DNA of 21,134 bases from a virus, in the IMG/VR virus record IMGVR_UViG_3300044609_000232, positions 1-21,134 of that record; one strand, given 5' to 3'. A program made the translations under genes and the position numbers. Shown piece by piece: positions 7,962 through 13,566 of this stretch. The notes beneath the pieces are model-generated. The model made no database searches and was not told the origin of the DNA. It saw only the letters and a list, made by a program, of their open reading frames with translations. Within the stretch, counting starts at the first letter, position 1. Every line of letters starts with the position of its first letter.

Positions 7962-8167
7962 TTGGCGGTGGCGGCAGTGACGAGGCTGGCGATGATGCGT
8001 TCGTAATCAGCGGCGAAGCTGTCGACCAGCTCCATGGGTAGCGGCACGCCGTCATCAATGGCGTTGTCGGCAATGGCTGCGGCATACGCCACTGCTTGAG
8101 TCATGGTCTCATGCAGCCGATTGATCACCGGCTGTTGTTTGGCTGGAATGTGAATGAGCGATGACAT
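7958..8167 (-). CDS. Small hypothetical protein upstream of the clamp
   Basis: The product from the ATG at 8167 begins MSSLIHIPAKQQPVINRLHE and ends IASLVTAATAK (69 aa), mostly amphipathic helix with no known motif. The stop overlaps the dnaN start (ATGA at 7958-7961), which supports the frame. The start is uncertain. An ATG at 8188 would add seven residues, and an ATG at 8104, 4 nt after the stop of the RHH gene, would give a 48-aa protein without overlap. The 8167 start overlaps the RHH gene by 59 bp. No Shine-Dalgarno sequence decides between them. Confidence 0.5.
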   Translation of the reverse strand: MSSLIHIPAKQQPVINRLHETMTQAVAYAAAIADNAIDDGVPLPMELVDSFAADYERIIASLVTAATAK

Positions 8168-8390
8168 ATGCAACAAGAGTTTCAACATGACGGCGGTTCA
8201 GGTCGCCACGCATGAAGGCGCAGGCGTCCGCCACCAGCGCATGGTACGCCGCCGTGGTCAATCCTGCAACAACTCCACCACTTAAAGCACGCTGCCGGAT
8301 CAGGTGCGCACGCGGGATGCCATGCGCTGCTGCTTCAGCGTTCAACCGCGCTAGGTCGTCAGTGGTGACATTGATCTTGATTTCGGGCAT
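8109..8390 (-). CDS. Ribbon-helix-helix DNA-binding protein
   Basis: The first 36 residues, beginning MPEIKINVTTDDLARLNAEA and continuing AAHGIPRAHLIRQRAL, fit a ribbon-helix-helix fold: a short beta strand (EIKINV) followed by two helices. This is the pattern of MetJ/Arc/CopG-family and relaxosome accessory proteins. The rest (to 93 aa) is Ala/His-rich helix with no known motif. It is the first gene after the repeat-rich 8391-8643 region, so it could bind there, as an autoregulator or origin-binding factor (inference). The last 20 residues lie over the next small ORF and look less protein-like. The RHH assignment is moderately confident; targets are unknown. Confidence 0.7.
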   Translation of the reverse strand: MPEIKINVTTDDLARLNAEAAAHGIPRAHLIRQRALSGGVVAGLTTAAYHALVADACAFMRGDLNRRHVETLVAYVIAHSHSSQTTAGDQSAA

Positions 8391-8443
8391 TAGATGCGCA
8401 GGAGTTCGATGCAGAATAGGTCCAAGGTGCGTCCTACCCAGAT

Positions 8444-8463
8444 GGACGAGGTCGGACGAGGTC
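8444..8463 (+). repeat. Two tandem 10-bp repeats GGACGAGGTC
   Basis: The word GGACGAGGTC occurs twice back to back (8444-8453, 8454-8463), followed by a partial third copy (GGCGG). The 10-bp period places both copies on the same face of the helix, as in iteron-like protein binding sites. Confidence 0.8.
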
Positions 8464-8515
8464 GGCGGCTTTGCTACGACTGGGGTCTGGCCTCTCCGTC
8501 CAACCTCCCAACCTA

Positions 8516-8524
8516 TATGGATAA
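8516..8524 (-). promoter_or_regulatory. Candidate DnaA box, 8 of 9 matches
   Basis: The minus strand reads TTATCCATA, differing from the bacterial DnaA box TTATCCACA at one position. It lies between the GGACG clusters and borders the purine-rich tract. One nine-base match can arise by chance; the setting makes it worth listing. Confidence 0.4.
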
Positions 8525-8528
8525 AAGA

Positions 8529-8551
8529 GGGAGAAGGGGGAGAAGGGAGGG
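8529..8551 (+). other. G-quadruplex motif in a 29-nt purine tract
   Basis: Positions 8523-8551 contain only A and G on the plus strand. Within it, four G runs (8529-8531, 8536-8540, 8545-8547, 8549-8551) are separated by loops AGAA, AGAA and A, meeting the usual G3+N1-7 pattern. The last G run also forms the left arm of the 8549-8571 hairpin, so the two structures exclude each other. Confidence 0.6.
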
Positions 8552-8571
8552 TTTAGGTAACTCTTAAACCC
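8549..8571 (-). terminator. Hairpin after the primase-helicase gene, possible terminator
   Basis: GGGTTTA (8549-8555) pairs with TAAACCC (8565-8571) around a 9-nt loop. In the leftward transcript it is followed by a pyrimidine-rich TCCCTTCTCC stretch, not a true T-run. It lies about 70 nt past the primase-helicase stop, so it may end that transcript, but a role in the origin is as likely. Confidence 0.35.
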
Positions 8572-8643
8572 TTAGATGGACGGTCGGACGTTGGACGGAC
8601 GTGGAATCCAGTGGTTGCAGTGGTTTGGCGCGTCCAACCCGAC

Positions 8644-10710
8644 CTATGGCTTTGCGAAATACCGCCGCCGCCGCCCAGACGCCTCCCGTTTTGCGACATA
8701 CCCGAGATCCTTGAGAATCGAAGCCACCTGCATCTGGTCAGCTCGTGTTTGGCGCTCAGGAGGTTTCTTGATTGCGTTATTCAAAAGCTCCTCTGTTGTA
8801 AGTGGTTCAACTACACGCCGCTTCTCAAGATGCTCCTCAATAGCACTACGCCAAGGCGAGTCAATGACATAGTTATTATTCTCCTCTGTCACTTGGATTT
8901 CCATGTCTACCGTTAAACGGTTGGTTTCACCTGCCCTGTAGGCATGTACAACAGCAGACCAAATCGCGTCACGTTCAAGCATCAGAGAAGCGGTATCAAT
9001 CTGGTCCTGCTGCGTCTTGGTAGTGGGGATGACCCAGAAGCGACGGTTGCCGGTTTCGTCAACCAAAAAGCCGGTGGTTTTATTTGTTGTGCCGACAATA
9101 ATTCCACGCCGTGGGAATGATTCAACTGCCTTGCCGTAAGGCACGCGCATAAGGTCCACTGCCTGCGAAAGAAAGGCTTTTACTTGTCCGGCATGACGTC
9201 TACCTGTGATGTGATCCAGCTCCGCCCACTCCATCATCCACGACCGATGGAGCACCATTACGTCGTCTTTACTTGATATATCACCGAGTGCATCGGAGAA
9301 GAACGGACCACCTAGGCAGCCCCAAAAACTGGATTTGTAGGCACCTTGATCGCCCATCAATACGCAGGCGGTGTCGTGCTTGCAGCCAGGGTTGAAGGCA
9401 CGTGCTACGGCGCCGATCAACGTGCGCTTGAGCATCTCGTCATAGATGGTCGGCTCCGGCAAGTCGGCGTCACACGGCCGCAGGTAGGTGGTGGCCAGCC
9501 GGTCGATGTAGGTCGGTGCAACGTGGTCGGCACAGTGCTCGAGGTAAAGCCGCACCGGGTCGTATGGTTTCTCGCTCGCCACTTGGACTAAGCAGTCGAT
9601 AGCCAACTCCTTGCCGACCTTGTAGCCCTGCTCTGCCAGCTTGAGGTAATAGCGATCGACGCCCTCGATCACTTGATTGTCGACCTCGATCTGTTGGGTA
9701 AAAATGTTGAGGCGGATATCGCCTGCGTTACGCCGCAGGTATTCGAGTAGCTCTGCAGCCTCTAGCTTCTCGGGCTTGCCCCCCACTGGCGCACGGCCAC
9801 CAGACTGCGGATCCGGGTCAGTAGTGCGACCACCAGCCACGCGCCGGACTGGGCTGGCGCTATGCCAGCCGTCTTTCTTGGCCATATCGCCAAGGGTGCC
9901 GAGCGTAATGCCGGATTTCTTGAAGCTGCGCCATTTGCGCTGGCAGTCACTGGGCTTGTGCTTGCTGGACTGCGCGGACCACTGTTCCCATTGATCGAGC
10001 AGGCTGTCATCACCGACGCTGTGCAACGACATGCCAACCGCGAGCCAGTCGTCGTAGTCATCAGCGCGGCTGGCGTCCAATGCGGCGAGGTACGACCGCG
10101 CGCGATCCGCGTCACTTTGCGGGTCAGGTATCTGGACTAGTTCGGCGCGCACTGGCTGCGGCTGCGGTTTAAGCATCCGCTCAATTAGTCCAATCGGCGC
10201 TTCTGCTATGTCGCGCTCGCCTGGCCCATGACCAGCCACCCAGTAATAGCCGGTGGTTTGAGGGTGTGCACCGGCCACAACGGATTGGCAGCCATTCCAG
10301 CGCAGCTCTACCTGCTCGGCCTTGCCGTCGTCATCAATGACACCGGTCTTGTATTTGCGCGTGGCGATGGCGTCCCAATACTGCTCAGGCACGCGGTAGA
10401 TGATCTGCATTCGGCCATCGCGGCCAGATTTGACCACCCAGCTGCGCGGCAGTGAGGACAGCGGCAGGTCCCATTCGGCCAATAGCGTGCTGGCGGACTT
10501 GCCATCGTGATCCAGAAACAACAGACCACCAGATGGCACACCGCAGCACACGCCGATAGCGCGTGCGCGACCACTGCTCAATTCAGCCAGCAGCGCATCC
10601 TTATTGAGCGGGTTGTCTTGCCATGCCGACTGATACGGGCGCTTCTGCCCATCTACAGCGACAAAACCCCAGTCATCGGGTAGGCGCGCAAGTTCTTGCT
10701 GCAGGTTCAC
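8644..10710 (-). CDS. PrimPol-helicase replication protein (prim-pol, PriCT, VirE/VapE-type ATPase)
   Basis: The 688-residue protein combines a primase and a helicase. The N-terminal bifunctional primase-polymerase domain (about 1-185) has LLFLDHDGK with the metal-binding DxD at D67/D69 and VVAGAHP (144-150). A PriCT-like segment follows (202-263: DYDDWLAVGMSLHSV, CQRKWRSF). The C-terminal VirE/VapE-type SF3-like ATPase has Walker A GDQGAYKS (453-460), Walker B region WMMEWAELD (491-499), sensor IIVGTTNK (537-544) and arginine finger GNRRFWVIP (554-562). This enzyme probably unwinds the phage origin and primes DNA synthesis. It starts at a GTG that overlaps the stop of the RHH gene (GTGA), forming a two-gene operon under the promoter at 10867-10894. 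The gene is intact. Confidence 0.92.
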   Translation of the reverse strand: MNLQQELARLPDDWGFVAVDGQKRPYQSAWQDNPLNKDALLAELSSGRARAIGVCCGVPSGGLLFLDHDGKSASTLLAEWDLPLSSLPRSWVVKSGRDGRMQIIYRVPEQYWDAIATRKYKTGVIDDDGKAEQVELRWNGCQSVVAGAHPQTTGYYWVAGHGPGERDIAEAPIGLIERMLKPQPQPVRAELVQIPDPQSDADRARSYLAALDASRADDYDDWLAVGMSLHSVGDDSLLDQWEQWSAQSSKHKPSDCQRKWRSFKKSGITLGTLGDMAKKDGWHSASPVRRVAGGRTTDPDPQSGGRAPVGGKPEKLEAAELLEYLRRNAGDIRLNIFTQQIEVDNQVIEGVDRYYLKLAEQGYKVGKELAIDCLVQVASEKPYDPVRLYLEHCADHVAPTYIDRLATTYLRPCDADLPEPTIYDEMLKRTLIGAVARAFNPGCKHDTACVLMGDQGAYKSSFWGCLGGPFFSDALGDISSKDDVMVLHRSWMMEWAELDHITGRRHAGQVKAFLSQAVDLMRVPYGKAVESFPRRGIIVGTTNKTTGFLVDETGNRRFWVIPTTKTQQDQIDTASLMLERDAIWSAVVHAYRAGETNRLTVDMEIQVTEENNNYVIDSPWRSAIEEHLEKRRVVEPLTTEELLNNAIKKPPERQTRADQMQVASILKDLGYVAKREASGRRRRYFAKP

Positions 10711-10911: not shown

Positions 10912-11076
10912 ATGCGCTACGAACCCAAATTTGTTCAGATTTCCGCTCCCGGCGAACCGCACGGGGCGACCTGTCTATACGCGCTAGATGAGGATGGCAA
11001 TGTTTGGGAACTCCACTACTACGCCGGTGCTCACGAGTGGAAATTTGTTGGCTCACCTGCTGGCATTGAGAAATGA
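10912..11076 (+). CDS. Small hypothetical protein opening the rightward block, 54 aa
   Basis: The ORF reads MRYEPKFVQISAPGEPHGAT and continues CLYALDEDGNVWELHYY to EWKFVGSPAGIEK. It is beta-rich, and the YALDEDGNVWEL turn resembles one blade of a propeller or a small beta-sheet protein. Its stop overlaps the helicase ATG (ATGA at 11073-11076), which strongly supports the frame. From memory similar small ORFs occur in cyanobacteria and their phages, without known function. It is the first gene of the rightward operon; I found no convincing rightward promoter just upstream. Confidence 0.7.
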   Translation: MRYEPKFVQISAPGEPHGATCLYALDEDGNVWELHYYAGAHEWKFVGSPAGIEK

Positions 11077-12428
11077 TTGATCTTCGCCCTTACCAGCAAC
11101 AGTTAGTTAATCAAATACGCGGCCAGTATCAGTTAGGCCACAAATCGGTTCTTGCCGTGCTTAGCACTGGTGGCGGCAAGACTTACATTTTCAGCTACAT
11201 CGCTCAACAAGCAAGTGTTAAGGGTAGCAGGGTTCTAATCCTTGTCCACAGGGCTGAACTGCTCGACCAAGCAAGCCGCAGCTTGCGCAGCATGGACGTT
11301 GCGCACGGGTTGATTCAAGCCGGCAAGGCAATGGACCTATCCCGCACGGTGCAGGTCGCATCGGTGCAGACGCTTGCGCGCAGACTGCACCTGCTGCCGC
11401 GGGATTTCTTCCAGCTGCTAGTGGTGGATGAAGCGCACCACACCACGGCAAACCAGTGGGCGCGCGTGATCGAGCACTTCCATAACGCCAAGCTGCTCGG
11501 CGTGACGGCAACACCGATACGCAGCGATGGCCGCGGCCTAGGCGAGCACTACCAAGCGATGGTGCAAGGGCCAACAGCGGAGCAACTGACGGATGCCGGC
11601 TATCTCGCCGCTGCCAAGGTGCTGGCACCGCCTGGCTTCGATTCAACCGGCCTGCGCAAGCGGATGGGTGATTTTGATGCCAAGGAGGCTGAGCAGCGCG
11701 TTGGCACGATCATGGGTGACTGCCTTGGTCACTACCGCAAGCACCTGCCAGGTCAAACGGCGATTGCGTTCTGCTGCTCCGTGGCGCACGCGGAGGCAGT
11801 GGCTGCACTCTTCCAGTCAGCCGGCATTGCCGCGGCCAGTATTGACGGCAGCATGGATACTGCGCAGCGCCGGCAGCTGCTGCATGACTTGGGCACTGGC
11901 AGGCTCAAGGTGCTCACCAGTTGCGCCCTCATTGGTGAAGGCGTGGACGTGCCATCGGTCGGCGGCTGCATCCTGCTGCGACCTACCGCATCTGTGGTGC
12001 TGCATCTGCAGATGATCGGTCGATGCTTGCGCCCGCAGCCGGGCAAGCGCGCCGTGGTGCTGGATCACGTCGGCAACACGCTCAGGCTTGGCCATCACTT
12101 GGAACCACGCGAGTGGACGCTAGACGGCATCAAAAAGCGCGACCGCGAGCAGGCGCCATCAGTCAAGGTGTGCCCGCAGTGCTTCGCCACCAGCGCCAGC
12201 GCTGTACAGGTATGCCGCGAATGCGGCCATGTGTTTGCGCCGCAGGAGCGCCGTGAGCTGCAGCAGGTTGATGGGGAGCTGCAGGAGTTGGCAGTGGCCA
12301 AGCGGCGTGAGCAGTCCTCAGCCCGCGACCTGGATGCACTCCGCCAGCTAGCGCAGCAACGCGGCTACAAACGCGGATGGGCAGAGCGGGTCTATCAGGC
12401 TAGGTTGCTCAAGAGGCATGGCGGATGA
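11073..12428 (+). CDS. Superfamily 2 DEAD/DEAH helicase with zinc ribbon
   Basis: The protein (451 aa) has a full SF2 core: Q-motif-like LRPYQQQLV (4-12), Walker A STGGGKT (31-37), motif II DEAH (119-122), motif III TATP (145-148), motif V EGVDVPSV (289-296) and motif VI QMIGRCLRP (313-321). A four-Cys zinc ribbon follows (C367, C370, C381, C384), then a charged C-terminal region with LAQQRGYKRGWAERVYQARL. This architecture resembles phage SSL2/UvsW-like helicases that remodel branched DNA or R-loops during replication and recombination. It overlaps its neighbours on both sides by ATGA junctions. Its downstream partners are a PP-loop protein and a VRR-NUC nuclease. All ATPase motifs are intact. 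Confidence 0.92.
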   Translation: MIDLRPYQQQLVNQIRGQYQLGHKSVLAVLSTGGGKTYIFSYIAQQASVKGSRVLILVHRAELLDQASRSLRSMDVAHGLIQAGKAMDLSRTVQVASVQTLARRLHLLPRDFFQLLVVDEAHHTTANQWARVIEHFHNAKLLGVTATPIRSDGRGLGEHYQAMVQGPTAEQLTDAGYLAAAKVLAPPGFDSTGLRKRMGDFDAKEAEQRVGTIMGDCLGHYRKHLPGQTAIAFCCSVAHAEAVAALFQSAGIAAASIDGSMDTAQRRQLLHDLGTGRLKVLTSCALIGEGVDVPSVGGCILLRPTASVVLHLQMIGRCLRPQPGKRAVVLDHVGNTLRLGHHLEPREWTLDGIKKRDREQAPSVKVCPQCFATSASAVQVCRECGHVFAPQERRELQQVDGELQELAVAKRREQSSARDLDALRQLAQQRGYKRGWAERVYQARLLKRHGG

Positions 12429-13216
12429 TGACACACATCTTTTCCTGTGGCGGCGGCGTTCAATCCACCGCCTGCCTAGTGCTAGCTGCTCAAGTCCGCA
12501 TACCATATCGCACTTTTGTGTTTGCCAATGTTGGCGATCAAGCTGAATCGCCTGACACTATTGAATACATTGCAAAAGTGCTTAAGCCATACGCCGCCAA
12601 ACACAGCATTGAATGGGTTGACTTGCAACGCAAGCGGCGAGATGGCGCTCCACTAGACCTTTACGATCATTTGCATCGTCCCATTCGATCCATAGACATT
12701 CCGGTGCGGATGGCTAATGGAGCACCAGGTAACCGCAACTGCACAGTGGAGTTCAAGATTAAACCCATTGCGCGATGGATCAAACACAACGCACCGAACT
12801 GCGTCCTTGGCAAAGGGATTAGCACTGATGAGCCACACCGCGCCACACCAAGCCGCGAATCTGATGGCTACACCAGCGCTTACCCGTTGATTGAGTTGGG
12901 ACTAAGCCGTCAGGATTGCTTGCGCTTGGTGGCGGAAGCCGGCCTGCCGCAGCCGCCAAAATCATCGTGTTGGTTCTGCCCATACAAAACCACCGACCAA
13001 TGGATCACGATGAGGCAAAAACGGCCAGAGCTATTTGAGCGTGTGGTTCAGCTTGAAGAAATGCTGAACGCCAAGCGCGCAGCTATCGGCAAAGATCAGG
13101 TTTTCATAAGTGGACGATGCAAGCCATTGTCTGTTGCGATCCCAGATCAGCTTGGGCTGTTTCCATCTTGGGTGGATGAGCAAGATGGTTGTGAATCCGG
13201 CTATTGCATGACGTGA
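12425..13216 (+). CDS. PAPS-reductase-like PP-loop (adenine nucleotide alpha-hydrolase) protein
   Basis: The 263-aa protein begins with a P-loop variant, FSCGGGVQSTACLVLA (6-21), corresponding to the SGGxxS pyrophosphate loop. It continues with FVFANVGDQAESPDT (31-45), RNCTVEFKIKPIARWIK (104-120), and a Cys pair in SSCWFCPYK (180-188). Further Cys lie in GRCKPLS and near the C-terminus (CESGYC), possible Zn or Fe-S ligands. This is the phage branch of the phosphoadenosine phosphosulfate reductase family. In cell metabolism relatives reduce PAPS or activate sulfur and tRNA substrates; the phage branch has no settled role. Position between a helicase and a nuclease hints at nucleic-acid modification rather than sulfur metabolism (inference). 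ATGATG at the start leaves the first Met ambiguous by one codon. Confidence 0.8.
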   Translation: MMTHIFSCGGGVQSTACLVLAAQVRIPYRTFVFANVGDQAESPDTIEYIAKVLKPYAAKHSIEWVDLQRKRRDGAPLDLYDHLHRPIRSIDIPVRMANGAPGNRNCTVEFKIKPIARWIKHNAPNCVLGKGISTDEPHRATPSRESDGYTSAYPLIELGLSRQDCLRLVAEAGLPQPPKSSCWFCPYKTTDQWITMRQKRPELFERVVQLEEMLNAKRAAIGKDQVFISGRCKPLSVAIPDQLGLFPSWVDEQDGCESGYCMT

Positions 13217-13566
13217 CCGAGCAGCAAATCCAGCAAGAGATCCGCATCGCCTGCAGCAATGGTGATACGCGCCTGTTCCGCAACAACACCGGCACGCTCA
13301 AGGATGCCAATGGCCGCCCAGTGCAGTTCGGCCTATGCAAGGGCAGCGCTGACCTGATCGGCTGGAAACGCGTCACCATTACGCCCGAGATGGTCGGCAC
13401 CCAAGTGGCCCTGTTCCTATCTATAGAGGTCAAGACCGCAACCGGCAGGCTGCGCACTGAGCAACAGCAGTGGCTAGATGCAGTCCAAGCGGCTGGCGGC
13501 ATTGCGGGCGTAGCGCGGTCGGTCAGTGATGCAGAGCGGTTGCTTACGGTTGCCGATGGTGTATAG
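13213..13566 (+). CDS. VRR-NUC domain nuclease
   Basis: From a GTG that overlaps the previous stop (GTGA at 13213-13216) the product is 117 aa. It shows the VRR-NUC pattern: conserved E9 in the first helix, FRNNTG (22-27), KGSADLIG with D47, the catalytic IEVKTATGR (E72, K74) and TEQQQWLDAVQAAGG (82-96). These PD-(D/E)xK-type nucleases act on branched DNA or flaps, and in phages they resemble Holliday junction resolvases. It is one of the standard partners of an SF2 helicase in phage replication modules. A TTG three codons earlier is possible but lacks support. The active-site residues are all present. Confidence 0.9.
   Translation: MTEQQIQQEIRIACSNGDTRLFRNNTGTLKDANGRPVQFGLCKGSADLIGWKRVTITPEMVGTQVALFLSIEVKTATGRLRTEQQQWLDAVQAAGGIAGVARSVSDAERLLTVADGV

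Follow-up and report, generated by a model that had tools for sequence, protein, structure and literature searches.

A repeat-bearing candidate replication origin beside the PrimPol-VapE helicase gene of tailed cyanophages

The gap and its flanking genes

The DNA analysed here (the window) comprises 21,134 nucleotides of the IMG/VR virus record IMGVR_UViG_3300044609_000232, in which a PrimPol-helicase gene is followed by a gap of 253 bp and then by RHH, orf2, clamp and terminase genes on the same strand (Table 1); the repeats pointed out in the initial annotation fill this non-coding gap. The primase-helicase matches the Pfam families Prim-Pol (7.2e-16), PriCT_2 (1.4e-20) and VapE (2.3e-62). 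Its sole sequence match in the PDB is entry 7pds (phmmer 1.8e-24), entitled PriRep1 with dsDNA, which is also the best Foldseek match (E 8.7e-08) of the full model, itself of moderate confidence (pLDDT 71.8, pTM 0.39); we take this PriRep1 to originate from SaPI5. By its Pfam domains and the 7pds match the enzyme is akin to PriRep1 and belongs with the PriRep/VapE-type initiators. At its C-terminus a helix-helix-helix-strand-strand fold is predicted, most blocks having pLDDT 84-96, and residues 600-688 modelled alone form a winged helix (pLDDT 83). The fold is a generic one, because the comparison with PriRep1 (7pds_B; Z 5.9 over 68 residues) scores level with unrelated winged helices and plain Foldseek with residues 600-688 returned nothing below E 0.001. 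The N-terminal 280 residues are ~43% identical to the N-terminus of plasmid replication proteins of the CyRepA1 family from Synechococcus elongatus (pUH24), and matches to the VapE half come from other cyanobacterial plasmids; on these similarities the initiator of the phage may have arisen by fusion of domains.

Table 1. Features of the PrimPol-helicase locus, in window coordinates
Feature	Position	Strand	Remarks
RHH-type small protein, weak NikA-like match, rival binder	8109..8390	-	Pfam E 4.8e-4, under the Pfam cut-off
Candidate origin region	8391..8643	- (PrimPol sense)	Non-coding, from PrimPol-helicase stop (8644) to RHH start (8390), 253 bp
GGACG words (n=9)	8430-, 8444+, 8454+, 8497-, 8578+, 8586+, 8593+, 8597+, 8631-		
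Repeat set 3	8430..8463	.	Tandem GGACGAGGTC (8444-8463) and CGTCCTACC (8430-8438)
Conserved box CCAGT...CAAAGCC	8467..8483	-	In relatives CCAGT...CAAGGCGTC
Repeat set 2	8497..8513	-	G-rich orientation on minus strand: GGTTGGGAGGTTGGACG
Conserved polypyrimidine tract, then T-rich stretch	8514..8551	.	Described on minus strand (purine tract on plus); contains the non-conserved DnaA-like box
Least stable 40 bp of gap, candidate melting segment	8541..8580	.	Conserved AAGAGTTNCC core, invariant alignment columns
Repeat set 1, adjoining PrimPol	8578..8639	.	GGACG x4 (8578, 8586, 8593, 8597) and CGTCCAACCCGACC at 8631
Predicted winged helix, proposed iteron-binding domain	8647..8856	-	PrimPol C-terminal residues 619-688
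PrimPol-PriCT_2-VapE primase-helicase, proposed initiator	8644..10710	-	Pfam

Nine GGACG/CGTCC words on both strands lie within 8430-8635, against ~0.33 GGACG expected per 213 bp, and the clustering beyond chance on which the initial annotation had based a candidate origin is thereby confirmed. The whole window holds 33 such words (chance mean 32.3). No 213-bp interval contained more than 4 in any of 300 dinucleotide-shuffled versions of the window, or more than 6 when the gap stretch alone was shuffled 2000 times, and no other 4- to 6-mer is clustered as strongly anywhere in the window. Equally real are the tandem GGACGAGGTC pair, the three similar elements (GTTGGAC copies at 8497, 8590 and 8631) and the purine tract (8525-8551), whose opposite strand is a pyrimidine tract conserved in relatives. 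The unit conserved among relatives is nevertheless a different one, GGACG being a lineage-specific form and, as far as the alignment goes, one lineage's version of a changing GGTTAGG(A)C-type repeat; other lineages carry TAGGACGG, GGTTAGG, TAGGTAGG or GGTTAGGCA.

The DnaA box has the consensus TTATCCACA. A DnaA-like box noted earlier, TTATCCATA at 8516-8524 on the minus strand, does exist with a single mismatch to this consensus, but it is confined to the window's closest group; the gap thus has none of the conserved DnaA boxes of a DnaA-dependent origin, and a DnaA role for it is not supported. The layout of the gap is two-sided, with repeats at 8578-8639 and 8430-8513 flanking the least stable segment, to which merely 0.6% of the window's 40-mers are inferior in stability and which contains, in the window's lineage, the inverted repeat AGGGTTTA/TAAACCCT. 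In the window the array begins ~10 bp or less past the PrimPol stop, and in the aligned relatives it likewise lies in the gap 3' of PrimPol.

Conservation of the gap and the protein it tracks

Searching IMG/VR with the PrimPol yielded 121 relatives, 80 of which were kept; when the PrimPol alignment served as query in a second viral scan, the best contigs were the same. In 37 of the 80 loci the gap spans 252-254 bp, and the other loci in which it was measured range from 193 to 258 bp. By length, 75 gaps including that of the window were usable, and 62 distinct ones were aligned, loci truncated within the gap and loci without a recognised downstream RHH gene being excluded. In PrimPol sense the consensus runs from C-rich repeats (GTCCTAACC...CCGACC, the counterpart of repeat set 1) through AAGAGTTNCC, the pyrimidine tract and the T-rich stretch to G-rich repeats (AGGTTAGG...GGACGG), the CCAGT...CAAGGCGTC box and further C-rich repeats, where CGTCCAACC and GGTTGGACG correspond to repeat set 3. 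The best conserved block, GGTTAGG/GGTTGGG with GACGG, is repeat set 2, and the last ~25-50 nt ahead of the RHH start are the least conserved portion. An expectation-maximisation motif over the gaps collapsed into a purine-rich pattern and was discarded.

Absence of the repeats from close relatives had been named as the outcome that would speak against an origin; in the comparison with sister phages they persist, and repeats and layout are retained among relatives with PrimPols 66-97% identical and in Synechococcus phage S-LBS1 (53.5%). In L083 (PrimPol 55%) downstream repeat enrichment was absent, 96 of 200 shuffles reaching the observed level. Within groups the gap has a p-distance of 0.06-0.12 against 0.24-0.38 at four-fold sites of PrimPol and so diverges 3-5x more slowly; this non-coding stretch is under strong constraint. 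When the window group is compared with the L004 group, gap distance (0.44) exceeds that of the four-fold sites of both PrimPol (0.41) and RHH (0.24), as if the gap had been replaced as a single piece.

Judged by the density of a compound motif, itself built from these gaps, the gap is the top 300-bp interval in all 16 long records, and the next-best site elsewhere scores 1-5. By unbiased counts of 7-mer repeat pairs the gap ranks first in three of the 16 (the window, G007 and G008), at most 13 other windows reach its score in 11 further records, and the gaps of G009 and G014 are moderate, with 83 and 52 other windows equalling them. GC skew, proposed as a check on the origin, was weak and inconsistent over 14 IMG/VR contigs, S-LBS1 and the window: the cumulative minimum that would mark a bidirectional origin comes near the gap (within 0.2 kb) in S-LBS1 alone of these 16 records. 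A minimum lying elsewhere, which had been named as a refutation, is hence the case in most records, yet the skew is too weak to decide. In G002 and G004 the skew maximum lies 52 nt beyond the end of the PrimPol match.

The repeats had been suggested to be iterons for either the PrimPol-helicase or the RHH protein. Across the 57 loci that have all genes, distances between gaps correlate with those of PrimPol (0.836), RHH (0.715) and clamp (0.509), and with those of the last 74 PrimPol residues at r 0.915, a value that linkage could inflate because the PrimPol C-terminus is the coding part closest to the gap. The partial correlation of PrimPol with the gap given RHH is 0.621 (0 of 999 permutations), whereas given PrimPol that of RHH is -0.028 and that of the clamp 0.00; once the PrimPol C-terminus is controlled, RHH retains 0.29-0.33, so that a residual RHH link or plain linkage may remain. 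The two proteins can also be dissociated over 61 loci, in pairs that are not independent. Where RHH is at least 88% identical and the C-termini less than 75%, gap identity is 0.56 (82 pairs), and where RHH is below 70% and the C-termini at least 88% identical it is 0.82 (57 pairs); it amounts to 0.57, the background, when both differ (1215 pairs) and to 0.95 when both are similar (181 pairs). Moreover, L075, L076 and L080 keep the gap with no RHH gene found downstream in the sequence available, as S-LBS1 keeps its repeats, and in L078 the profile search gave a weak downstream RHH match (E 0.023). The gap tracks PrimPol, chiefly its last 74 residues, rather than RHH; of the two suggested binders PrimPol is therefore the supported one, and RHH as main reader is not supported.

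Two further observations concern this flank of the gap. A promoter-like TTGACC-N17-TACCAT follows the array, by eye, in L075 and L076, with a variant in L078. L028 (IMGVR_UViG_3300037485_000597) is a natural recombinant that combines PrimPol and gap of L004 type with RHH (59%) and clamp (48%) from another lineage, and its switch point lies at about the final 25 nt of the gap.

Similar layouts in other replicons

S-LBS1 (MG271909), a named relative with a PrimPol of the same family, carries 11 GGTTAGG and additional TTGGGCA copies in the 405 bp 3' of PrimPol, and the array directly precedes terS. Its annotation includes portal, capsid and tail genes; it differs from the window in that no clamp gene is annotated and the only RHH-like ORF, a weak match (E 7e-4), lies upstream of PrimPol. 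The main text of the S-LBS1 paper contains none of the terms 'origin of replication', 'repeat', 'GC skew' and 'intergenic' (PMC6157547). Part of the array occurs twice in the record (34262-34393 and 34510-34641); the second copy is truncated and sits at the record end, immediately ahead of terS, which starts at position 1. This may reflect a real duplication or an assembly effect. A long direct repeat at ~11200-11450 is, by 7-mer pairs, the most repetitive place of this genome outside the PrimPol gap region.

The PriRep1 family is reported to read iteron origins just downstream of its own gene (PMC7581432, PMC6092414): the C-terminal domains of SaPI Rep and Cch2 bind iterons immediately downstream of their own genes (PMC7581432), and PICI origins lie 3' of rep, with an AT-rich region between two iteron sets (PMC6092414). 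In 2018 this layout was stated to be common to PICIs and to be found in no other known bacterial replicon. The window shares with the SaPI/PICI pri-rep-ori arrangement a fused primase-helicase with a VapE-type helicase and a predicted C-terminal winged helix, and the candidate origin likewise lies directly 3' of the initiator gene, its repeat sets placed around the least stable segment (compare PMC6092414 and PMC7581432). Unlike these elements, the cyanophage gap has three repeat sets, a conserved pyrimidine tract, a CCAGT box and another repeat sequence. PICIs are satellites without structural genes, whereas the window encodes a large terminase (Pfam) and S-LBS1 portal, capsid and tail proteins, so that the host element is a tailed phage and the replicon PICI-like rather than a PICI.

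SCCmec Cch2 is similar in its D5/VapE-like helicase, the C-terminal domain of which binds direct repeats downstream of the gene, but three 5-nt iterons only and a separate primase are reported (PMC7581432). The PER element of Streptococcus thermophilus phage Sfi21, a 302-bp stretch reported to act as an origin (PMC6356513), resembles the gap in being a non-coding phage element, and its repeats are different. GGTAAC repeats lie 3' of the VapE-type helicase of CHPC1282, another S. thermophilus phage, and we infer that the CHPC1282 gap is the same element as PER. The alpha protein of satellite phage P4 is a primase-helicase binding short iterons (ori1/crr), and P4 replication needs two separate sites, in contrast to the single one of the cyanophages. 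P4 alpha and its ori are mentioned in PMC6092414.

To gauge breadth, 18 named VapE phages were surveyed, five that headed a first ranking, S-LBS1 among them, and 13 chosen by taxonomic spread from 60 matches listed of 647 records. In eight of them the number of repeats within 350 bp past the gene exceeds that in all 200 shuffles (S-LBS1, RcJoli, APSE-1, vB_SauS_320, Dina, ApiWellbeing, NatCom_24345 and CHPC1282), NatCom_24345 being marginal (z 3.9, against z 3.0 in its mid-gene control); the controls gave 0/18 upstream and 1/18 (Mano) in mid-gene. The commonest repeated words vary among most array-positive phages, an example being TGATGCAACA in vB_SauS_320, and TGCAACA is common to vB_SauS_320 and ApiWellbeing. 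No array was found within the first 350 bp in the other ten (LPPA36, Mano, P2559Y, PM21P2, BF503P4, HNL35, phi3ST:2, vL_291, FoX3 and KA2-1), and that of LPPA36 is located after the following ORF; the layout is thus widespread, not universal. It appears to be present in this cyanophage group as well as in several further tailed phages. On cyanobacterial plasmids, six VapE genes from among 158 records with a match had no comparable 3' array, the maximum being two tandem GGGACAACC in L200, and iterons were not found in the passages searched of the CyRepA plasmid papers. Staphylococcus, Corynebacterium and Paenibacillus phages (L210, L211, L215) have a recurring set of VapE-type helicase, VRR-NUC or other small endonuclease and DEAD/ResIII helicase, and genes similar to this set occur in another order at 11073-13566 of the window.

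Proposed origin function and alternative readings

The repeats, their two-sided layout, the strong constraint, the single site per record, the tracking of the C-terminus and the kinship with PriRep1 are best read as an initiator-adjacent iteron origin, SaPI/PICI-like, in tailed cyanophages. The gap is probably recognised by the C-terminal end of the adjacent PrimPol-helicase, and we consider it likely that it serves as the phage replication origin. PrimPol-VapE oligomers, hexamers by analogy, would bind the repeat sets through the C-terminal winged helix and open the AT-rich segment between them; the protein would then load itself as the replicative helicase, and its PrimPol domain would prime synthesis as the origin fires. 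Of the origin proposed initially, the iteron-type site belonging to the PrimPol-helicase is supported by persistence and by co-change with the C-terminus; RHH as main reader and a role for DnaA are not supported.

Alternatively, the repeats might be operators or promoter elements of the RHH-orf2-clamp-terminase genes, bound by RHH or another phage regulator. RHH proteins often bind repeats, the gap lies immediately upstream of these genes on their strand, and RHH keeps its partial correlation with the gap when the PrimPol C-terminus is controlled. Yet near-identical RHH loci have gaps at background difference, the gap outlasts the RHH gene in L075, L076 and L080 (with L078 at E 0.023), and the S-LBS1 array stands directly ahead of terS. 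No second array occurs elsewhere in the 16 records, 8300-8750 contains no sigma-70-type match, and conservation is lowest in the final nucleotides before the RHH start; we regard this explanation as unlikely, although a promoter for the RHH-clamp-terminase genes could possibly share the gap.

It is more improbable still that the gap is a packaging site (pac/cos) with terminase-binding repeats. Terminase genes do follow ~1.5 kb downstream in the window, and terS comes right after the S-LBS1 array, but in the S-LBS1 paper PhageTerm locates the terminus at 25,643, a long way from the array (PMC6157547), and the gap follows PrimPol rather than downstream genes, as measured for the clamp. If the transcript that leaves PrimPol contained a structured RNA or an attenuator, this could account for inverted repeats that form hairpins, 9 of 14 predicted pairs changing on both sides; however, repeats on both strands yield paired changes without any RNA, the gap folds no better than shuffles (z -0.95), the consensus energy is just -5.1 kcal/mol and there is no Rfam match, which makes this reading the least likely.

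If the gap is the origin, iteron array and PrimPol C-terminal winged helix might form a swappable specificity pair, exchanged as a cassette, within a type of replicon general to tailed phages that have a VapE helicase; we put this at slightly under an even chance. The window and L004 groups, with RHH at least 88% identical and gaps at background difference, would exemplify such a swap. Were the proposal true, co-infecting phages would retain compatible, non-cross-reacting origins, and the initiator-3'-iteron layout would extend beyond PICIs to VapE-helicase tailed phages generally. A ~250-bp origin and a single protein might give a compact vector replicon for Synechococcus-like hosts. The 62 distinct natural versions of the candidate origin beside their initiators provide a data set on the co-changing specificity of helicase-initiator and origin, in which the joint change of origin layout and enzyme is visible across many related viruses.
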